From Archaeoglobus sp. (GTDB taxonomy: Archaea > Halobacteriota > Archaeoglobi > Archaeoglobales > Archaeoglobaceae), in assembly GCF_017656475.1 (NCBI RefSeq), contig NZ_JACDNT010000018.1:1-40185 (forward strand): a DNA stretch of 40,185 nt. Direction: 5' to 3'. This document shows, piece after piece, positions 849 through 23,774 of this stretch; position 1 is the first letter of the stretch, and every line of letters starts with the position of its first letter. Under the pieces are notes generated by a model. The model ran no database searches. It saw nothing but the letters and a program-made list of their open reading frames with translations, and was not told the origin of the DNA. Both the position numbers and the translations under genes were made by a program.

Positions 849-1556
849 GTGTTTGGCTACCACGACGTTGAGGGATTTCAGGCTGAGATAGGCGAATACA
901 GGATAAGAACGGAAAAGGCTGGTCCTTTTTACCAATATATTAGAGAGAACGGCGACAAAATTGAGAAAGGACTTTCAGTCGATAAGGGGAGGCTGATTAT
1001 AAATCCAGTCGAGCCGGTTAACATGCCCAAAAACATTACCAACTTCCTGCAAATCAAGTTCACCAAACCATTTTTTGCGGAACCAAAATCGGCGGTAGAG
1101 GTTTACGCCACCTTTCCGGTTGAGATAGCTGTCTTTATTGCGGCTAAAAAGAGCGTAGGGATTGTCGACATCTTCTCGCTCCAGAAACCAAAATACACGC
1201 TCTACGGGAATCCGAGAGACGGGATAATTTGCCGATACTGGGAGAGCGACCTTTATTCAGAAATTCCGCAGGTTGACAAATACAGAGAAGGTGTAATCAA
1301 GCTAAGAATCGTGAACAGCGACAGTGAGTGGATTGAAATAAGCAACGCTGTTTTCGACGTTTACGGAATGAAGATATACTATGATGAGGAGATGGTTTAC
1401 TCCTCAGCCTCTATTAACATAGTCTCACCAAAGGTTGCAGAAACGAGGTTCATCGAGCAACCTCTGAAGGAGAAGATGAGGAAGGCCTTGGAACTCTACA
1501 CCGCGAGAAGAATTGCCGTAACTGCTTTAAAATTCGTAATGGAGTGGGGATTATGA
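849..1556 (+). CDS. DUF432 family protein
   Basis: This 235-residue soluble-looking protein starts at GTG and resembles the archaeal DUF432 family, whose function is unknown. It has alternating beta-type segments (for example AVEVYATFPVEIAVFIA) and a helical C-terminal tail. It shows no signal peptide, membrane span or metal-binding cluster. Its last codons overlap the start of the MscS-type channel gene in an ATGA arrangement (1553-1556), so the two are probably translationally coupled. The pairing suggests a role tied to the channel or membrane, which is inference from context only. Confidence 0.7.
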   Translation: MFGYHDVEGFQAEIGEYRIRTEKAGPFYQYIRENGDKIEKGLSVDKGRLIINPVEPVNMPKNITNFLQIKFTKPFFAEPKSAVEVYATFPVEIAVFIAAKKSVGIVDIFSLQKPKYTLYGNPRDGIICRYWESDLYSEIPQVDKYREGVIKLRIVNSDSEWIEISNAVFDVYGMKIYYDEEMVYSSASINIVSPKVAETRFIEQPLKEKMRKALELYTARRIAVTALKFVMEWGL

Positions 1557-2395
1557 TTGATATTTTAAATTACAAGCTTTATGGAGACGTTACGGTTTAC
1601 GATGTTATAGTCGTCATCGTAGTGATGGCTTTCGCCACAATAATAGCAAAGTTGGTCACAACCAACCTCAGAAGAACCCTTATAGACAAAATGAAGAGAG
1701 ATCAGCTTGAACTGATGCTCAAAGTCATTTACTTCGGGATAATTTTCATCGCTTTCATTGCCGTTCTGCCAGCATTGGGTCTTGACCTTTCAGGTTTACT
1801 GGTTGCGGGTGGGATTACCGGAATAGTTCTCGGTTTTGCCAGCCAGAGTGTTGTCGCAAACCTCGTTTCCGGGATTTTTCTTATCTCGGAGAAGCCGATA
1901 AAGATTGGAGATCAGGTTAACATTGACGGAGTTGCGGGTTTTGTTGAGGACGTGAACATTCTCTCCACAATCATCCGAACCTACGATGGCCTTTATGTCA
2001 GAATCCCCAACGAGAAGGTGTTCACTTCTAACATAACCAACTACGTGGCCCACATAGCGAGGAGGTTCGAGTATGTTATAGGGATAAGGTACAGCGACGA
2101 TGCCGAGAAGGCGATTGAAATCATAAAGAGGCTGATTGAGGAGCATCCCTTCGCCCTTAAAAATCCTGAGCCGCAGGTTTTCGTTGACAGCCTTGGTGAC
2201 AACAGTGTAAATATCGTTGTGAAGATATGGGCGCCGTCAACAGAATGGTATAGCGTAAAAATGGAACTGCTGTGGAAGATAAAGACTGAACTTGAGAGGA
2301 ATGGAATTGAGATTCCATTCCCGCAGCGTGTGGTTTGGTTTGCGAACGAGCTGAGGGCCAATGTTGAGGGTAAGGAAGAGGGACAGCAGACTTGA
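1553..2395 (+). CDS. mscS: Small-conductance mechanosensitive channel, MscS family
   Basis: A 280-residue membrane protein with N-terminal transmembrane segments and the MscS signature. The pore-lining helix and beta-domain junction reads GLLVAGGITGIVLGFASQS, followed by NLVSGIFLISEKPIKIGDQV, a hallmark of the family. The channel opens under membrane tension to release solutes during osmotic downshift. The ATG at 1553 overlaps the upstream stop codon; an in-frame GTG at 1544 is less likely. The C-terminal cytoplasmic domain is of normal length. The 3' end overlaps the following nuclease-like gene by 35 bases, so all are probably one transcript. Confidence 0.92.
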   Translation: MIDILNYKLYGDVTVYDVIVVIVVMAFATIIAKLVTTNLRRTLIDKMKRDQLELMLKVIYFGIIFIAFIAVLPALGLDLSGLLVAGGITGIVLGFASQSVVANLVSGIFLISEKPIKIGDQVNIDGVAGFVEDVNILSTIIRTYDGLYVRIPNEKVFTSNITNYVAHIARRFEYVIGIRYSDDAEKAIEIIKRLIEEHPFALKNPEPQVFVDSLGDNSVNIVVKIWAPSTEWYSVKMELLWKIKTELERNGIEIPFPQRVVWFANELRANVEGKEEGQQT

Positions 2396-3158
2396 GGAGT
2401 TCAGCAAGGCCAAGATTATCAGAACGTGCTTGAGGGCTGGAGCGAGCAAGAGAGTTGCTGAGAGGGTGGCAGATGAGGTTGAGAGGAGGATATACGATGG
2501 GATAAGCACTGACGAGGTTCTCGAACTCGTAATTGAGCTTTTGCTGAAGCATGAGTATCCAAAAGCGGAGAGATACGACCTTAAGCGCTCCCTGCTTCGT
2601 CTTGGCCCTTCCGGGTTCGGCTTCGAGAAGTTCGTTGCGAGGCTGCTCAAAGAGTACGGCTTCGAAACGGAGACAAATGTAATCGTTCAGGGCAAGTGCG
2701 TTGAGCAGGAAATTGATGTTGTAGCTGAGAAGGACGGAGAAAAGTACATGATAGAGTGCAAGTTCCACAACCAGCCAATCTACACTGGATTAAAGGAGGC
2801 CATGTACACGTACGCACGATTTCTTGATGTCGAAGGACACGGCTTCACCAAGCCATGGATTTTCACGAACACCAAGTTTTCAGAAGAGGCAAAGAGGTAT
2901 GCGAGATGCATGGGGATAAGGCTGACCGGCTGGAATTATCCTGAGAATGAGGGGATAGAAGTGCTGCTTGAGTCAAGAGGCCTTTATCCCGTCACCATTC
3001 TAAGAATAGAGAAAGAGATACTCGACACGGTCGTTAATGCCGGGCTGGTTTTTTGCAGGGATATAGTGAAAGCTTGTGAGCCCAAGCTGAGGACGCTTGG
3101 ATTAAGCAAAGACGAGGCAAGGAGGCTCGTAGAGGAGGCGAAAAAGGTGATTTCTTAG
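2361..3158 (+). CDS. ATP-cone domain fused to Mrr-like restriction endonuclease domain
   Basis: A 265-residue two-domain protein. Residues about 1-85 resemble an ATP-cone (VRKRDSRLEEFSKAKI...), a nucleotide-sensing module best known from ribonucleotide reductase regulation. Residues about 86-180 resemble the Mrr/PD-(D/E)XK nuclease fold, with E89, D119 and E132-x-K134 (EIDVV...IECKF) forming the expected catalytic set. Residues about 215-265 are a helical tail that could be a helix-hairpin-helix-like DNA-binding segment. The gene begins inside the MscS gene and ends sharing its TAG with the next GTG (TAGTG). Whether it cuts DNA, and what nucleotide controls it, is not known from sequence. Confidence 0.75.
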   Translation: MLRVRKRDSRLEEFSKAKIIRTCLRAGASKRVAERVADEVERRIYDGISTDEVLELVIELLLKHEYPKAERYDLKRSLLRLGPSGFGFEKFVARLLKEYGFETETNVIVQGKCVEQEIDVVAEKDGEKYMIECKFHNQPIYTGLKEAMYTYARFLDVEGHGFTKPWIFTNTKFSEEAKRYARCMGIRLTGWNYPENEGIEVLLESRGLYPVTILRIEKEILDTVVNAGLVFCRDIVKACEPKLRTLGLSKDEARRLVEEAKKVIS

Positions 3159-3520
3159 TGAGCGTTTATGAGCGGTGGTTGAAAGGGTACAGATATGTGA
3201 AGGCAAGAGATCTGCCGGACTGGTTCTTGCCAATTCATGTGGCTTTCTTTGCGGTCATGAGCGTCGCCTACGTTTTCATTGCTTCGGTTATTGTTGGTGA
3301 ACTAATATTCCTTAAGGCTGAGTGCGCTCACTTGTCAATCCCAATCGTCGTCTTTTACCACTTCGTAACGGACTTCGAGGGCTGGAAGAGTGTGCTGACG
3401 AGTCCGAAAGCCCTCTATTACAGCCTATTTTACTCTACTGCCGGAGCAGTATTCTGGTTTGTAATGATGCAGATTGGTATTTTTCCGAGCTTTAAGGAGT
3501 TGTTCATGCTCAGCGAGTAA
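3158..3520 (+). CDS. Small integral membrane protein, unknown function
   Basis: A 120-residue protein starting at a GTG that overlaps the previous stop codon. It has three or so hydrophobic segments: about residues 24-50 (IHVAFFAVMSVAYVFIASVI), 58-70 and 88-108. No domain was recognised. It is the last gene of the DUF432-MscS-nuclease operon and may be a membrane partner of those products. Confidence 0.6.
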   Translation: MSVYERWLKGYRYVKARDLPDWFLPIHVAFFAVMSVAYVFIASVIVGELIFLKAECAHLSIPIVVFYHFVTDFEGWKSVLTSPKALYYSLFYSTAGAVFWFVMMQIGIFPSFKELFMLSE

Positions 3521-3659
3521 GCGCTGTCAGTTCATGGTGGAAAGGCCGGCATTTTGATAAATCTCGCTGTTTAATGTTTGCGGAAACATAAACAGAGTAG
3601 AACTCTAATCAACGTGCTGGTATGGAAAGTTAGCATCTCAGCTTAGCAGAAAATAAAAA

Positions 3660-9165: not shown

Positions 9166-12100
9166 ATGCACATCGAGAAAATACGGCTGAAAAATTTCAA
9201 ATCTTTCGGCAAAAAGGCTGAAATTCCGTTTTTCAAGGGATTTACCGTTATCACCGGCCCCAATGGGAGTGGAAAGTCGAACATAATCGACTCCATTCTC
9301 TTCTGCCTTGGCCTTTCAACTTCAACAAAGCAGCTCAGGGCTGAAAGGCTCACAGACCTCGTCCACAACGGAAAGAGTGAGGCAGAGGTCACAATCCTCT
9401 TCTCGGAGAACGGAAAGAAATACGAAGTTGCAAGGAAAGTGAAGATAACGGAAAAGGGGTACTACAGCTACTACTACCTCAACGGGAGAAGTGTCAGCCT
9501 CTCCGAGATCCATAACTTCCTCTCGCAGTTTGGGATATACAGCGACGCCTACAACGTGGTAATGCAGGGTGATGTGACAAGGATAATCGAGATGTCACCA
9601 TTCCAGAGGAGGAAAATAATAGATGATGTCGCAGGCATTTCGGAATTCGATGAAAAGAAGGAAAAGGCCTTGGAAGAACTTGAGAGAGTTAGAGAGAGTA
9701 TAGAGAAGCTTGAGGCAGTTATTGCAGAAGTCAACGATAGACTGCAAACTCTTGAGAGGGACAGGAACGAGGCCATAAGATACAAGGAGATTCTCAGCAG
9801 AAAGGAGGAGTACGAGAGCTATCTCAAAGCCCACAACTACCTCACTGCTGTCAAGGGAAAAGAGAGGGTTGAAAGGGAGCTTGAAAGACTTGAGAGGCAG
9901 AGAGATGAACTCACAAGAAAAATACCGGAAATAAACGCAAAAATGGCTGAGTTGAATGAAAAGGTTAACGAGCTTGCCACAAAAATTTCTGAGCTTGGAG
10001 ACGAGAGGTCGGCTGAAATACAGTCGAGAATACTTGAACTCAGTTCTGAGCTTGAGTCTATAAAGAGAGCTGAAAGATTCTACCTCGACGAGGCTAAAAG
10101 ACTTGAAGAAGAGTCGGTTAAGGTAATTGCGGAAATTTCCAAAATAAAAGAGGATGTGGAAAGCATAGACGCAGAGCTTGAAGAGTACGCCATAAAGAGG
10201 ATACAGGTTGGAGAAATCGTTGATGAGCTCGCTGCTAAGATGGAACTTCTGAAGCTAAAACTTGAGGAAGTTGACAGGGAGCACAGAGATCTGAGAGACA
10301 GGCTTGTCAGCAGGAAAGAGGAGCTTGAAAGGCATAAGGAGAGACGAAGTGAGATTTTAAGGGAAAGGGACAAGCTCGTTGAGCTTATCAGGAGAATAGA
10401 CATGGATGTAGAGAGCATTAAAAACGAGATTTCTTCCATCGAGTTGAAACTGAAAGAGTTTGAGGACGAGAAGAAGAGTAATCAGGAAGAACTGTGGAGG
10501 TACGAGGAGGAGTTGCTTAACGCCAAAAAGAGGCTCGGTTCTGCAGACAAGGAGCTCTTTGAACTGAGGTCAAAGATATCCGACGTGGAGGAGGAGCTAA
10601 AGAAAGCGGAGCTTGAACTTGCAAAGGTGAAGGCGACACTGTCCACCCTAAGGACGTACTCCAAGCCTGTCGAGCTTCTACTCGACGCAAGAAACAGAAG
10701 AGAGCTTCCTGGGATTTTCGGCACGGTGGCACAGCTTGGAGAGGTGGATGAAGAGTACGTAACGGCTATTGAGGCTGCTGCCGGAAATGCGCTGCAGTTT
10801 ATCGTTGTTGAGACTGAAGACGATGCTGTTACTGCCATAAACTACCTGAAGGCCGTTAGAGGAGGAAGGGCTAGCTTTATCCCCCTCAGGAGAATAAAGA
10901 ACTTCAAGCTGAACCTCGACAAGTCCATTTTGAGAGAAGACGGTGTTATAGATTATGCAGTAAATCTTGTCAAATGCGAAAAGAAGTTTCAGCCTGTTTT
11001 CAAGTTCGTTTTGAGAGATACAGTCGTTGTAGACAAAATTGAGACGGCCAAAAGGTTAATGGATAAAGGCTTCAGATTCGTCACTCTCGAAGGAGACCTT
11101 GTTGAGAAATCCGGCCTGATGACCGGAGGAAGTTCGGAGAGAAGAGGTATTCTCGTTTCGAGAGAGCTGGTGGAAAAGGAGAGAGTGCTTTCCGACAAAA
11201 TCTACGAACTTCAGAAAAAGAAGGATGGGCTCTTTGCCGAACTCAATAGAGCGGAGAGTTTGAGGAAGCAGTACAAGGAGGAAGTGGAGAGGCTCACGGG
11301 CATGATCAACGAGTTAAGGAACAGAAAGAGCTTACTGGAGGAGAAAATAAAAACGGAGAGTGGTAGAATTGAGGAGTTAAAGGAGAAGATACAGCAGAAA
11401 ACGAGAGAAAAGGAGGAGTACATAAGATCGCTCAAGGAGTACAATGAGATGCTGAAGGAGCTGGAAAAGACTGTTGGTGGGCTTGAAGCTGAAATTGAGG
11501 AAATTGAGAAGAAGCTCAGGGGAAGTGAAGTGCCGAAAATCATAGAGGAGCTCGACAGAGTGAAGGATGAGCACCAGAGGAACAAGGAGATTTTGATCTC
11601 AATAGAGAAGAAAATTGAAAGCCTTGAATTCAAAAAGGAGCAGCTCGAAAGCAGTATGCAGGAAAAGCAGGTTTACTTGGATGAGATAAGGGACAGAATC
11701 GAGGAGATCAAGAACACGGTTGAAGAGGGGAAAGTGAGAGCTGAGGAGATAAACTCCGAACTCGAGCAGCTCAGGAAAGAAGAGAAAGAGATAGGGAAAG
11801 AGCTCAAAGGACTGAGGAAGGAGAGAGATGAACTACTAAAGAAGATGAGGGCTGCGGAAGAGGAGAAGAGGAGAATTGAGGCTGAGATAGACAGGCTTGT
11901 GGAGAGGATAAAACTTCAAAATGAGAGGTTGGCGATGGCCGAGTCAGAGATTGCTGAGATAGGCGAGGTTGAGGTTCCTGAGAACCTACCACCGCTTGAA
12001 GAGGTTCAGATGGTGCTTCGAGCAATTGATGAGGAACTTTCAAAGTTTGGAGACGTCAACCTGAAAGCAATTCAGGAGTATGAAGAAGTTAAAGCGAGAA

Positions 12101-12636
12101 GAGACGAGATGGTTGAGAAGAAAATGGTGCTTGAAAAGGAGAGGGCAGACATTCTGGAGAAAATTGAGAGATACGAGAGAATGAAAAGAGAGATCTTCTT
12201 TGAAGTATTCACAGCCATAAACAGAAACTTTGCGGAAATTATAAGAGAACTCACGAACGGTGAGGGGGAGCTATACCTTGACAGCGACGATCCTTTCAAC
12301 AGCGGACTTTACATTAAGGTCAAGCCAAACAACAAACCTGTCCAGAAGCTTGAATCTATGAGCGGTGGAGAGAAGAGCCTTGTAGCACTTGCTTTAATCT
12401 TCGCCATCCAGATGTACAAGCCAGCTCCTTTCTACGCCTTTGATGAGGTCGACATGTTCCTCGACGGCGTGAATGTGGGAAGAGTGGCAAAGATGATAAA
12501 GAAGAGGTCGAAAGATGCGCAGTTTATAGTTGTCTCATTAAGAAAGCCCATGTTGGAGCAGGCTGACGCGATAGTTGGAATAACTCTCGGGAGGGATAAC
12601 GTATCACAGGTGACGGGAATCAAGCTGAAGACCTGA
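9166..12636 (+). CDS. smc: Chromosome segregation protein SMC
   Basis: An 1156-residue full-length SMC ATPase, the motor subunit of the condensin-like complex that organises and segregates chromosomes. The N-terminal head has Walker A GPNGSGKSN (residues 31-39). Long coiled coils (about 165-495 and 690-1010) flank a hinge domain at about 500-680 (ELPGIFGTVAQLGEVDEEYV...). The C-terminal head has the ABC signature MSGGEKSLVALAL (near 1066) and Walker B FYAFDEVDMFLD (near 1088). Length and domain order are standard. The gene precedes scpA, giving a typical archaeal smc-scpA operon, and a coiled-coil gene precedes it by one base. Confidence 0.97.
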   Translation: MHIEKIRLKNFKSFGKKAEIPFFKGFTVITGPNGSGKSNIIDSILFCLGLSTSTKQLRAERLTDLVHNGKSEAEVTILFSENGKKYEVARKVKITEKGYYSYYYLNGRSVSLSEIHNFLSQFGIYSDAYNVVMQGDVTRIIEMSPFQRRKIIDDVAGISEFDEKKEKALEELERVRESIEKLEAVIAEVNDRLQTLERDRNEAIRYKEILSRKEEYESYLKAHNYLTAVKGKERVERELERLERQRDELTRKIPEINAKMAELNEKVNELATKISELGDERSAEIQSRILELSSELESIKRAERFYLDEAKRLEEESVKVIAEISKIKEDVESIDAELEEYAIKRIQVGEIVDELAAKMELLKLKLEEVDREHRDLRDRLVSRKEELERHKERRSEILRERDKLVELIRRIDMDVESIKNEISSIELKLKEFEDEKKSNQEELWRYEEELLNAKKRLGSADKELFELRSKISDVEEELKKAELELAKVKATLSTLRTYSKPVELLLDARNRRELPGIFGTVAQLGEVDEEYVTAIEAAAGNALQFIVVETEDDAVTAINYLKAVRGGRASFIPLRRIKNFKLNLDKSILREDGVIDYAVNLVKCEKKFQPVFKFVLRDTVVVDKIETAKRLMDKGFRFVTLEGDLVEKSGLMTGGSSERRGILVSRELVEKERVLSDKIYELQKKKDGLFAELNRAESLRKQYKEEVERLTGMINELRNRKSLLEEKIKTESGRIEELKEKIQQKTREKEEYIRSLKEYNEMLKELEKTVGGLEAEIEEIEKKLRGSEVPKIIEELDRVKDEHQRNKEILISIEKKIESLEFKKEQLESSMQEKQVYLDEIRDRIEEIKNTVEEGKVRAEEINSELEQLRKEEKEIGKELKGLRKERDELLKKMRAAEEEKRRIEAEIDRLVERIKLQNERLAMAESEIAEIGEVEVPENLPPLEEVQMVLRAIDEELSKFGDVNLKAIQEYEEVKARRDEMVEKKMVLEKERADILEKIERYERMKREIFFEVFTAINRNFAEIIRELTNGEGELYLDSDDPFNSGLYIKVKPNNKPVQKLESMSGGEKSLVALALIFAIQMYKPAPFYAFDEVDMFLDGVNVGRVAKMIKKRSKDAQFIVVSLRKPMLEQADAIVGITLGRDNVSQVTGIKLKT

Positions 12637-12668
12637 GTTTCGAGGATCCAATTGAAATTCTTATCGAG

Positions 12669-13349
12669 ATGGCCAAAAGGGGGGAAATTGACCCCTGGAA
12701 CATCAACGTAGTTGACGTTACAGACAGATTTCTCAAAAGGATTGAGGCTGCGAAAAAGCTTGACCTGAGAGTTTCGGGAAGAGTACTGCTTTATGCAGCT
12801 ATTCTGGTTAGAATGAAGGCGGAAGCCATAACGCTTGAGGCTTTAGGTGAGGGTGAGGAGGAAGATGGGGTTGACGAGTCATACGAATGCGACTCCTTCT
12901 ATTTCCTCGATGAGCCTTTAGAGTTTCCGGAAGAGGTTGATGAAGAGATTGATGAGGTTATTCTTGAAGCTCTCACTTCAATGAGAAGGAGAGTTAGAAA
13001 GATAACAACTCTGAAAGACCTGATTGAGGAGCTCAGAAGAGCTGAAGAAGTTGAAAAAAGAAGGAGAAGACGTAAAAGAAGAGAGAGACAAGAAGATGTT
13101 GGTGTAGATGCGGCCCTGAGAGTTCCACATGAGGAGAGTCTTGAAGAAATGATTGCTAAGGTTGAGATGGAGGTTTTCGAGGCTTTGAGGAAAAGAGATT
13201 CTGTAACTCTCTTCTCTCTCGTTAAAAAGTGGGATGTGCCAACCCTTGTCGACTACTACGTCTCGATTTTGCACTTGGCCTTCAGAAAAAAAGTCGAAAT
13301 AAGGCAAGAGGAGTTTTACGGAGATGTTGAGATTCAGAAGTTGAGCTGA
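12669..13349 (+). CDS. scpA: Condensin subunit ScpA (kleisin)
   Basis: A kleisin-type partner of SMC that bridges the two SMC heads. The N-terminal motif MAKRGEIDPWNINVVDVTDRFL and the helical C-terminal winged-helix region (TLVDYYVSILHLAF...) are those of ScpA. The middle is acidic, then Arg-rich. The first standard start is ATG at 12669 (226 residues). However, the same frame stays open upstream and encodes SFEDPIEILIE, which fits the conserved ScpA start, with no ATG, GTG or TTG before the stop at 12597. The true start may be non-standard, for example the CTG at 12633 that overlaps the smc stop as CTGA. Confidence 0.88.
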   Translation: MAKRGEIDPWNINVVDVTDRFLKRIEAAKKLDLRVSGRVLLYAAILVRMKAEAITLEALGEGEEEDGVDESYECDSFYFLDEPLEFPEEVDEEIDEVILEALTSMRRRVRKITTLKDLIEELRRAEEVEKRRRRRKRRERQEDVGVDAALRVPHEESLEEMIAKVEMEVFEALRKRDSVTLFSLVKKWDVPTLVDYYVSILHLAFRKKVEIRQEEFYGDVEIQKLS

Positions 13350-19212: not shown

Positions 19213-19707
19213 TCACTCAAAGAAGCTCTTCAAAGCCTCCTTAATTTTTTCAGGCTCAGAGGATTGGAGGCCGAAATAGGTAGCAAACTCCTCTGTTGTT
19301 GTCAGAATTGTTGACCTTCCCTTTTTCTCGGCCTTTACTAGACCTCTCTCCTGCAATTTCTTTACATGGTCGTAGCATTTGTTTCCTCTTATCTTAGCAA
19401 GCTTTGCAAGAGTTATCGGTTGCTTTGAGGCTATGACGGCAAGAGTTCTGAGAGTTCCCCTGTCAAACTCCCTTACGGTGTATTTTTCTACGTAATCGGC
19501 ATACTGTGGCTTAACTCTCATAAGGTACTTTTCTCCAACCTTAATTATCTCGATGGATGTATCACGGGACTCGTAATCGCTAATGAGCTCACCAATTGCA
19601 TTGAGAATCTCAACTTTGTCCTTCCCCGTAACCTTTCTAAGCTCTTTAATATCGACAGGTTCGGATGAAGAAAAGAGGATTGCCTCTATGATTTTTTTTA
19701 GTTCCAT
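19213..19707 (-). CDS. scpB: Condensin subunit ScpB
   Basis: A 164-residue ScpB homologue with two winged-helix domains: an N-terminal KKIIEAILFSSSEPVDIKEL, typical of the family, and a second domain with YTVREFDRGTLRTLAVIASKQPITLAKLAKIRG, which fits the ScpB signature. ScpB binds ScpA and helps the SMC complex to bridge its heads. The length is close to bacterial ScpB, slightly shorter at the C-terminus. The gene is 5.9 kb from scpA and on the other strand, so SMC-ScpA and ScpB are not co-transcribed here. Confidence 0.9.
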   Translation of the reverse strand: MELKKIIEAILFSSSEPVDIKELRKVTGKDKVEILNAIGELISDYESRDTSIEIIKVGEKYLMRVKPQYADYVEKYTVREFDRGTLRTLAVIASKQPITLAKLAKIRGNKCYDHVKKLQERGLVKAEKKGRSTILTTTEEFATYFGLQSSEPEKIKEALKSFFE

Positions 19708-20392: not shown

Positions 20393-21706
20393 TCAAAGCT
20401 GAAGAGCCTTCAAAAGCTCCTGCAGGTTGTTCTCTTCAGCATACTTTCTCAAGTCTGCATAGCCTTTCATTGCTGCATCTATGGCCTGTCTGAAAGCCCT
20501 TGCACCTGCAGCGGGCCCATCAGGATGTGCATGAATTCCACCTCCTGCAGCAACGACGAAGTCTTTACCGAGCGTGCTGACGAGTTTTGGAACCATGATT
20601 GGTGCTATGCCACCAGAAGGCATCGGGAAGCATGGTTTTATGTCGTAGAATGGATACCTGTGCTGCTTCGCAACCTCGATATACTTCTCCTCCATCATCG
20701 GTGCTTTGCCGTAAGGTGCGGGATAGACAACTATGTCCGCTCCAGCAAGTCTCGGTAGCTTTCCTAATATAAGCGTGCTCCTTACTCCAGAAGTTGGCGA
20801 GACGTAATACGCTCCAGCAACGTCCATGTGAGCCATTATCGGGACTTTTATGCTCTCGTCCTCAGCCAGAGCCCCCAACACTGGAAAGCCTGTGGCGAGG
20901 TAGTTGACCAGCAAGCAGTTAGCCCCAAGCTCAATCGCCTTCTCAGCATTCTCAAGAACTTCCGGGATGTCAGCTGTGACGTTTACCGCATAAAGCGTCT
21001 TCTCTCCCTTTTCCTCATCAGCCCTGTCAATCGCCTCCATGAACTTTGGAACCCTTTCTTCGATTCTGTTGAAGTCCGGATTTGCCAGCAACTCGTCGTC
21101 CTTTATGATGTCAACCCCACCTCTCGCCACCTCATATGCAAGCTTTGCACCGAGGTCTGGTGGGGAGTAGACGTCTGGCTTGATCATGTTGTTGAGCAGC
21201 GGGCGATCTTTGACTCCGAGCACCTCTCTTACACCCTCGATACCGAACTTTGGACCCTTAAATCCCTTAACGAATTCCTTGGGAAATCTTAGGTCGAGGA
21301 GCTTGAGCTTCGGTGCCATCGATATGTTTCCAACGACAGTTGAGAAGAGCATGGAAAGTCTGCTTCCCATGTTTCTCCATGGGAAGGCTATCTGTACGAT
21401 GAAGCTTCTCCACTCAACATCCTGAGGCACCATAATCTCGTAATCGGGAACCTCATACACGCCCACAACCTTCGCGACATGCTTTCTCCTCACCTCTGGC
21501 GTTTCTCCCGGTACTGGCAGCCATGTGCCCGTGCTCTGCTCCAAGGCGAGAACCTGACTGATTTCAAAAGGATTCATCCCTTTCGGGAAAGACATGTAGT
21601 ACGTCCCGATAACGTATTCATCCGGATCAACGCCTTCAGGCAGAGCTTCGGGGTTTGCCTCCGGATGCTCAAACTTCTGGAACCTCAGTTTGACGCCAAG
21701 CTGCAT
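20393..21706 (-). CDS. RuBisCO-like protein (form IV type)
   Basis: A 437-residue homologue of the RuBisCO large subunit. The carbamylated-lysine motif survives (GGVDIIKDDE, K202), as do K176, H293, K334 in PYGKAP, S364-G365-G366 and the phosphate-binding G388-G390. The second lysine of KPK is aspartate (KPD, D178), and loop 6 is PYGKAP, unlike true carboxylases. The pattern GKLPRLAGAD...YPAPYGK resembles the enolase-type RuBisCO-like proteins of methionine salvage. The protein probably catalyses an enolisation or isomerisation, not CO2 fixation. The substrate is unknown. The gene lies 4 bp behind a saccharopine-dehydrogenase-like gene. Confidence 0.85.
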   Translation of the reverse strand: MQLGVKLRFQKFEHPEANPEALPEGVDPDEYVIGTYYMSFPKGMNPFEISQVLALEQSTGTWLPVPGETPEVRRKHVAKVVGVYEVPDYEIMVPQDVEWRSFIVQIAFPWRNMGSRLSMLFSTVVGNISMAPKLKLLDLRFPKEFVKGFKGPKFGIEGVREVLGVKDRPLLNNMIKPDVYSPPDLGAKLAYEVARGGVDIIKDDELLANPDFNRIEERVPKFMEAIDRADEEKGEKTLYAVNVTADIPEVLENAEKAIELGANCLLVNYLATGFPVLGALAEDESIKVPIMAHMDVAGAYYVSPTSGVRSTLILGKLPRLAGADIVVYPAPYGKAPMMEEKYIEVAKQHRYPFYDIKPCFPMPSGGIAPIMVPKLVSTLGKDFVVAAGGGIHAHPDGPAAGARAFRQAIDAAMKGYADLRKYAEENNLQELLKALQL

Positions 21707-21710
21707 TCTA

Positions 21711-22937
21711 TCACCCCAGAGCCGGAAAAACTTCCTTGAAATCTATTTCCCTCCTTCCACTCTCATCCTCAACCTCCACTATGAGGGGGATTCTTTCCAC
21801 TCCCATTGCCTGCAGAATCTTCTGGGCAAGCTGTAAAGCGTCGATTGGATCAATGCAGGCCTCAGGAGGCATCACTCCTGCTCCATCAACCTTTCCCAAA
21901 CCCATAAGCATCGCTCCTATCGCAGCCGGAATGCCGGTTCCTTCTCCCATACCCATTCCTCTCGAAGCGAGGGAGAAGTAGTACCTCTTCACCTCTCCTC
22001 CCTTCCTGCCTCTTACAGCAACCGTCACACAGCCCATTGGCTCCGTAATACCAGCCTTCTTCAGTAACTCCTCTCTCTTAGACAGTATGAACGCCACCGC
22101 AAACTCTAAGGGATCGACTGTCTGTTCTCCAACTTTGATTGGTGGCGAAGAGGTCATGCTGATTCTCACAAGAGTTTTGATAAGCTCAGCGTATTCAGGA
22201 GGGAGAACAAGGCCGAGATTCGTCACCCTCTTCACACCCTTGATGTACTTCGGTAGAGTTATGGTTTCTGGATGGGGATACGCGTAAACCCAGTACTTTC
22301 CAATGAGCGGAAACTCGAACTCTTCTTCCAAGGCCTTTCCGCTCTCTTCAAACAGCCTCACAGTCCTAAACTCACCATCCAAAAACACGGGAATTTCCAT
22401 CTCCATTGAATGTATGCGGTGCTTCACAACTGCTGCCCCTTCTGTAGCCTCTCCTCCGTGGGCATGGTAGATGTCTATCGCCTCGGTTTCATCGAAGAGG
22501 TGGAGGGCGGCATACTTTGCCAGCAAATTGGCCAGGCCAGGAGAGCTTCCCATACCAATAACAGCCTTAATTCCAGCCTTTTTGGCATCATCATCCATTT
22601 TTAACTGCTCTACTGTGGCATCGTAATCATCGCAGATGTCCACATAGTTAACCCCCGCCTTAATTGTCGCACTCAACAGCTTGGGCCCGTACTCGTAGAA
22701 GGGACCGACACAGTTCAGCACGACATCAAAATCTTTGATAATTCCGGAAACTTCGTCCACATTTCCGGCATCGCATTTAAGGGCTTTACTCTCATCAAGC
22801 TGACAAACGCTGGCAGCTCTTTGAGCATTTTCTTCGCTCACATCTGCAACGTAGAGCTCTGAGAAAATGCCCGACCTGCTGAGGATCATTGCAGCAGTTG
22901 TGCCGACTGTTCCACAACCCAAAACAACACATCTCAT
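21711..22937 (-). CDS. Saccharopine dehydrogenase-like oxidoreductase
   Basis: A 408-residue protein with an N-terminal Rossmann domain (VVLGCGTVGTTAAMIL, acidic D in VADVS) and the saccharopine dehydrogenase-type fold, with the conserved LNCVGPFYEYG and YVDICDDYD motifs. It probably uses NAD(P)H to act on an imine, enamine or related compound. It need not make lysine; many homologues act in other pathways. It is the first gene of the operon with the RuBisCO-like gene, only 4 bp apart, which suggests consecutive chemical steps. The C-terminal part has an unusual Gly/Met-rich stretch (SRGMGMGEGTGIPAAIGAM). Confidence 0.85.
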   Translation of the reverse strand: MRCVVLGCGTVGTTAAMILSRSGIFSELYVADVSEENAQRAASVCQLDESKALKCDAGNVDEVSGIIKDFDVVLNCVGPFYEYGPKLLSATIKAGVNYVDICDDYDATVEQLKMDDDAKKAGIKAVIGMGSSPGLANLLAKYAALHLFDETEAIDIYHAHGGEATEGAAVVKHRIHSMEMEIPVFLDGEFRTVRLFEESGKALEEEFEFPLIGKYWVYAYPHPETITLPKYIKGVKRVTNLGLVLPPEYAELIKTLVRISMTSSPPIKVGEQTVDPLEFAVAFILSKREELLKKAGITEPMGCVTVAVRGRKGGEVKRYYFSLASRGMGMGEGTGIPAAIGAMLMGLGKVDGAGVMPPEACIDPIDALQLAQKILQAMGVERIPLIVEVEDESGRREIDFKEVFPALG

Positions 22938-22994
22938 AGGGCTGACTTCATGTCAGCAAATATAAAGATTTTGATTTAAAGTTAAAGATACTAC

Positions 22995-23774
22995 TTAGAC
23001 GTTTCCAAATGCCGGGATTGCCTTTACACCATATTTTTCGCAGATTTTATTAATCCTCTGGCTCAATTCTTTCCAGTCTGTCTTAGCTGCTTTTTCTGCC
23101 ATTTCCGCTACAAATCCGCTCTTCATAAACCCCTTCACTCTGAACTTATCATAATAGAGTGAACTGCTTGTTTTACCTGCAATCTCAACAATCTCTTCAA
23201 TTTCTTTCTCATCTACGCCTGGAATTACGGGGCCCATGAAAATCCAGGTCCTGACACCCTCATCGCTCAACCTTTCAAGCGCTCTAATCCTTCTTTGCGG
23301 AGAGGGGGCATAAGGTTCAATTTTCCGTGCAAAATCTTTGTCCAACATTGTAATGGTGAAGCCCACATCCACGAGATTTAGGTTCTGGCTAAGAAGATCC
23401 ATATCTCGGAGAACAAGATCGCTTTTAGTCTGGATTCCGACCTTACAACCGTTTATCAACAATATTTCCAGAATTCTCCTTGTAAGCTCTTCCTCCTTCT
23501 CCAAAGGCTGATAGGGGTCAGTCATAGTGCTCAAAACGACTCTCCCACTCGGTCTCCTCCTCAACTCCTTTCCAAGAACCTCCGGGATGTTCTCCTTGAC
23601 GATTACAACGCTTCCCCAGTTTTCTCCAACCTCTTTCTGGCAATAGCTGCGGGCGTAGCAGTAAATGCAGCCGTGTGTGCAGCCTGTGTACGGGTTGATG
23701 GTAAAGTCCACACCCGGCAGGTTGCTCCTGCTTAAAGCCCTTCTGACACTCTTTCTTATCACCCGAACTCCCAT
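22995..23774 (-). CDS. Radical SAM protein, spore-photoproduct-lyase-like
   Basis: A 259-residue radical SAM enzyme with the cluster motif C32-xxx-C36-xx-C39 (GCTHGCIYCYARSYC). It has the overall pattern of the COG1533 group, which includes spore photoproduct lyase and relatives: NPYTGC, then STMTDPYQPLEKEEELTR and MGPVIPGVDE. It cleaves SAM to a 5'-deoxyadenosyl radical; the substrate is unknown. The gene overlaps nreA by 16 bases (23759-23774) and is probably translated with it, which gives a hint of a DNA repair link. Confidence 0.85.
   Translation of the reverse strand: MGVRVIRKSVRRALSRSNLPGVDFTINPYTGCTHGCIYCYARSYCQKEVGENWGSVVIVKENIPEVLGKELRRRPSGRVVLSTMTDPYQPLEKEEELTRRILEILLINGCKVGIQTKSDLVLRDMDLLSQNLNLVDVGFTITMLDKDFARKIEPYAPSPQRRIRALERLSDEGVRTWIFMGPVIPGVDEKEIEEIVEIAGKTSSSLYYDKFRVKGFMKSGFVAEMAEKAAKTDWKELSQRINKICEKYGVKAIPAFGNV

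Follow-up and report, generated by a model that had tools for sequence, protein, structure and literature searches.

MscS is a model mechanosensitive channel that, to our knowledge, is generally described as acting alone. The locus analysed here, in an Archaeoglobus contig stretch of 40,185 nt (the window), whose closest named relatives are Archaeoglobi/Archaeoglobus assemblies, encodes a channel that resembles E. coli MscS in its three MscS domains (an NCBIfam MscS subfamily model matches at 2.5e-45, below its cut-off) but, unlike it, is encoded together with a DUF432 protein. The overlapping downstream gene specifies a nuclease orthologous to AF1548 of Archaeoglobus fulgidus (PDB 1y88; phmmer 4.1e-93 over residues 90–264), with which its model also shares the fold (Foldseek TM 0.94 of target). 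The solved 1y88 chain, unlike the window nuclease, has no ATP-cone and covers the nuclease and C-terminal parts only, and the cone that is intact in the window is frameshifted in G004, the complete genus genome encoding the 1y88 sequence (L034:6298–7094, corresponding to G004:C1:1394297–1395093); other genomes of the genus have intact copies. A comparable layout, in which an Mrr-like PD-(D/E)XK nuclease domain carries a ligand-sensing domain at its N-terminal side, is found in the Card1-like effectors Can2/Cdn1 (Foldseek probability about 1), from which the window nuclease differs in carrying an ATP-cone and no CARF domain, with low TM values of 0.3–0.4. Moreover, the cone is like those of NrdR and RNR in sequence, fold and retained base- and phosphate-contacting residues, whereas its carrier is neither an RNR nor a repressor, the cone being joined to a nuclease.

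Layout of the locus

The features of the locus, all four ORFs being on the + strand, are as follows.

849..1556, + strand: DUF432 protein, 235 aa (Pfam PF04254, 8.5e-49)
1553..2395, + strand: MscS mechanosensitive channel, 280 aa (Pfam MS_channel 1st, 2nd and 3rd domains)
2361..2395, + strand: 35-bp double-coding overlap of the MscS C-terminus and the first ATP-cone strand
2361..3158, + strand: AF1548-family nuclease with ATP-cone (Pfam; PDB 1y88 by phmmer, 4.1e-93)
3158..3520, + strand: small membrane ORF, 120 aa (Pfam: no family)
3163..3628, strand not given: segment of about 466 bp that differs in the relative G003 (blastn of the window against L030)

A sequence-only reading of this DNA had described four genes with overlapping stops and starts, and these could all be found in the window sequence: the DUF432 stop and MscS start are joined as ATGA (1553–1556), the 35-bp overlap follows, and the nuclease and small ORF meet at TAGTG (3156–3160). 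Its domain calls (DUF432, MscS, ATP-cone and PD-(D/E)XK nuclease) were likewise upheld by Pfam. The mechanically called MscS ORF opens at GTG 1544, ATG 1553 being the likelier start. The double-coding overlap is real, as many nuclease homologues begin at the same cone position, and its length is 32–35 bp throughout the genus.

What did not stand was the idea of a conserved four-gene system, since outside two Archaeoglobaceae lineages the nuclease is scattered relative to DUF432–MscS, and since the small membrane gene is not kept among relatives; a four-gene module was rejected on these two grounds. The small ORF gave no PADLOC match, and is absent from the other seven genomes of the genus; G017 and G025 alone have clear homologues, that of G017 lying far from the nuclease. 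It falls within a 466-bp segment flanked by DNA that is 92–93% identical in G003, and is an accidental passenger outside any conserved unit. In G003 itself, this segment is exchanged for sequence unrelated to it that contains another membrane-protein ORF, a clean swap between near-identical relatives. With moderate confidence, we favour a locus of two tandem units (DUF432–MscS and the nuclease) plus a passenger ORF, that is, a DUF432-partnered osmotic valve with a loosely attached, probably ATP/dATP-gated nuclease. Gene order and its retention among relatives, the conserved residues and the modelled folds are observed, and the biochemistry throughout is inferred.

DUF432 and MscS as a conserved archaeal pair

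DUF432–MscS is the conserved core of the locus and a widespread archaeal pair. Among 53 DUF432 genes in the window's phylum, 52 have MscS directly downstream, mostly overlapping, and the one true exception (G012) has both genes but separated. The 52 include 20 of 20 loci sampled across the phylum outside the window's family, and in Thermoproteota DUF432 is directly upstream of MscS in 11/12 cases, the twelfth DUF432 lying at a contig end. Seven Archaeoglobaceae genomes have a single MscS each, the channel of the window is the only MscS in its genome, and in G018 we found neither DUF432 nor an MscS of this type. Among 14 control genomes, all have MscS and one has DUF432 (Methanosarcina acetivorans), with DUF432 found in none of the bacterial controls.

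DUF432 scores 165.3 bits against a PF04254 cut-off of 21, and MscS matches its three Pfam domains (TM2/3, beta and C-terminal) above cut-off. The DUF432 model (pLDDT 92) is all-beta and predicted soluble, and found no fold match in PDB or among the viral folds of BFVD; a similarity to tetanus toxin (E about 0.8–1) was dismissed as chance. Against PADLOC defence models DUF432 gave nothing beyond a weak Csn2 match (E=0.01). No mention of DUF432 or COG2430 as whole words was found in a literature search whose scope excluded most subscription journals. The C-terminal tail, FxMEWG here, is conserved, reading roughly FxM(E/D)xG in most of the 53-gene set and more weakly in some Thermoproteota copies. 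Because it is retained even where MscS starts 51–114 nt downstream, the tail is not merely a protein-encoded ribosome-binding site.

From gene order, we infer that DUF432 is a dedicated partner in contact with MscS. MscS would act as a tension-gated emergency valve made together with soluble, all-beta DUF432, which may bind the cytosolic portion of the channel, perhaps via the FxM(E/D)xG tail, and may thereby assist its assembly or tune its gating. That DUF432 is instead an independent osmotic-response enzyme or binding protein, sharing the operon with no channel partner, we consider unlikely. The split pair in G012 and the presence of two or three DUF432 copies in several genomes of the phylum and of Thermoproteota fit such independence, but one-to-one adjacency over two archaeal phyla is typical of stoichiometric partners and, in G104, G126 and G184, which have two DUF432–MscS pairs apiece, each examined copy adjoins its own MscS. 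As DUF432 is co-encoded with MscS across two phyla and has no detectable structural relative, the proposed role of dedicated MscS partner is directly testable.

An ATP-cone on a PD-(D/E)XK nuclease

The nuclease comprises an ATP-cone (residues 1–80; Pfam 4.3e-12), an Mrr-type PD-(D/E)XK domain (84–188; Mrr_cat, 3.9e-11) and an AF1548-like_C domain (209–264; 7.1e-21), the last of which the sequence-only reading had left unnamed and which scores 74.5 bits against a cut-off of 23.9. Its model (pLDDT 89.6) showed, besides 1y88, weaker Foldseek matches to the modification-dependent endonucleases AspBHI and MspJI, to Can2/Cdn1 and to the cones of NrdR and RNR. The catalytic motif proposed earlier, E89, D119, E132 and K134, is present and, when its conservation was checked, proved invariant among 17 homologues. 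The proposed fusion of a nucleotide-sensing-type domain to a nuclease was also borne out, by the Pfam ATP-cone and by fold matches that include CARF–PD-(D/E)XK effectors as well as NrdR/RNR cones.

Within the cone, K6, K18 and T50 are invariant and V4 and E12 nearly so across the same 17 homologues, and R7 is retained in the window's own protein. In E. coli NrdA, adenine and phosphate are contacted by V7, K9, R10, E15, K21 and T55 (PMC11447812), which align with V4, K6, R7, E12, K18 and T50 of the nuclease cone. By contrast, Leu54 stands where NrdA has H59, the residue that tells dATP from ATP, so that a simple copy of RNR switching is not to be assumed. The window cone also reads KRDS (G9 replaced by Ser; 2385–2387) where nearly all homologues, the closest relative included, have KRDG. 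Given these two substitutions, the cone may discriminate between nucleotides differently or no longer do so.

Judged from its sequence, the nuclease is probably ATP/dATP-gated. Binding of ATP or dATP by the cone would change the oligomeric state, and this change could switch the Mrr-type PD-(D/E)XK site on or off, much as in CARF–PD-(D/E)XK effectors with ATP/dATP taking the place of the cyclic oligonucleotide. Within a scope that left out most subscription journals, a literature search on AF1548 with Archaeoglobus found nothing, and one on ATP-cone nucleases found a single paper, on NrdR. AF1548 nucleases form a large uncharacterised group for which the ATP-cone predicts ATP/dATP control, testable in vitro on thermostable proteins.

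Linkage, neighbours and the defence question

The order DUF432–MscS–nuclease, with overlapping genes, occurs in all eight genomes of the window's genus. Three more loci of the Archaeoglobaceae (L083, L084 and L086) share the order, the nuclease being preceded there by a gap of −4 to 25 nt. All other examined family members that have the nuclease carry it unlinked to DUF432–MscS, G021 at a distance of about 2 kb and in the opposite orientation. None of the 20 DUF432–MscS loci sampled across the phylum outside the window's family has it. On the nuclease tree, the linked label requires three changes and occurs in two lineages. The link is confined to two Archaeoglobaceae lineages. Nonetheless, the genus-wide overlap and the recurrence of adjacency in a second lineage leave room for some functional link between nuclease and channel. 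In the genus and this one sister lineage, overlap or close spacing would couple the nuclease to DUF432–MscS, probably for joint production, and this coupling need imply no physical interaction.

The sequence-only reading had likened the locus to stress or abortive-infection modules and raised an association with defence islands. In its three-gene form, DUF432, MscS and the nuclease would be a single such module, with the channel or the cone as damage sensor and the nuclease as the effector that destroys nucleic acid. Besides the conserved overlap and second-lineage adjacency, such a module could draw on the resemblance of the sensor-plus-PD-(D/E)XK layout to Can2/Cdn1, and on the frequent occurrence of multi-TM operon neighbours beside the nuclease elsewhere (19/44 against 55/295, p=5e-4). 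Against it stand the distant DUF432–MscS loci, 20/20 of which are missing the nuclease, the majority of family members outside the genus, in which the nuclease has no linked DUF432–MscS, and the near-universal, mostly one-copy distribution of DUF432–MscS, which is unlike that of a mobile defence system. PADLOC signal was likewise scarce: MscS matched no PADLOC model, the nuclease gave only generic nuclease-domain matches (ZorD and CARF_PDDEXK, the latter to the nuclease part at 1.8e-8), and just three matches at 1e-10 were found among the 54 immediate or selected near neighbours of the nuclease that were scanned. For lack of such signal in the locus's own genes and among these 54 neighbours, the defence module was rejected and an association with defence islands found no support, and we regard a joint three-gene stress module as very improbable.

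Relatives of the AF1548 family occur in Archaea, Bacteroidota, Patescibacteria/CPR and DPANN, and 141 of 393 genomes have some match, many of which involve just the cone or just the nuclease domain. In 81 nuclease clusters, the families that recur up to three genes away are P-type ATPases (11), beta-CASP nucleases (9), AMP phosphorylase-like proteins (6), PRPP synthetases (5) and amino-acid permeases (5), and the genes flanking the nuclease in G017 are, judged by eye from sequence, similar to CorA and to a membrane protein of DUF389 type. With TM segments counted by a simple hydropathy rule, an independent nuclease set had neighbours with ≥2 TM in 8/34 cases versus 21/149 (p=0.14) and with ≥4 TM in 8/34 versus 11/149 (p=0.011). 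A general rule that the nuclease lies beside transporters is thus only partly supported, being strong in the first set (19/44 against 55/295) and significant in the independent set only at ≥4 TM.

These data also bear on whether the nuclease might be a nucleotide-pool-regulated enzyme of DNA repair or maintenance, related to Mrr/Hjc/NucS, whose channel neighbour arose by chance and was fixed in one lineage. Weak Hjc and NERD Pfam matches, the presence of Hjc and the repair endonuclease 2vld among the Foldseek hits, and the scatter of the family among unrelated neighbours are consistent with such a role, to which ATP/dATP sensing would be suited as a monitor of dNTPs. Yet no recognised repair genes are among the recurrent neighbours, which encode transporters, beta-CASP, AMP phosphorylase and PRPP synthetase, and the patchy distribution of the family is unlike that of core repair, so that we hold this account to be rather unlikely. 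Returning to the two-unit reading, a bolder extension of it can be put forward only tentatively: DUF432 would be a near-obligate archaeal MscS subunit with a novel all-beta fold and a role in tuning or assembling the channel, and the AF1548 family a widespread ATP/dATP-gated nuclease, placed in stress loci beside genes for ion or metal transport and nucleotide salvage as the nucleotide-sensing counterpart of CARF nucleases.

Further observations concern the surroundings of the nuclease genes. In Fodinibius-type bacteria (L130:9185–10720 and L156:9184–10719), another ATP-cone protein, of 511 aa and with the cone at its N-terminus, is encoded two genes 3′ of the nuclease, and the remainder of this protein resembles, by eye, a glucoamylase-like domain. 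A single Olivibacter genome has two nuclease copies (L119 and L150), each amid P-type ATPase and beta-CASP genes. Elsewhere in the window, genes for SMC and a ScpA-like protein are adjacent, with that for a ScpB-like protein on the other strand at a distance of about 6 kb (9166–13349 and 19213–19707), and a run on the minus strand (20393–23774) contains radical SAM, saccharopine-dehydrogenase-like and RuBisCO large-chain family genes.
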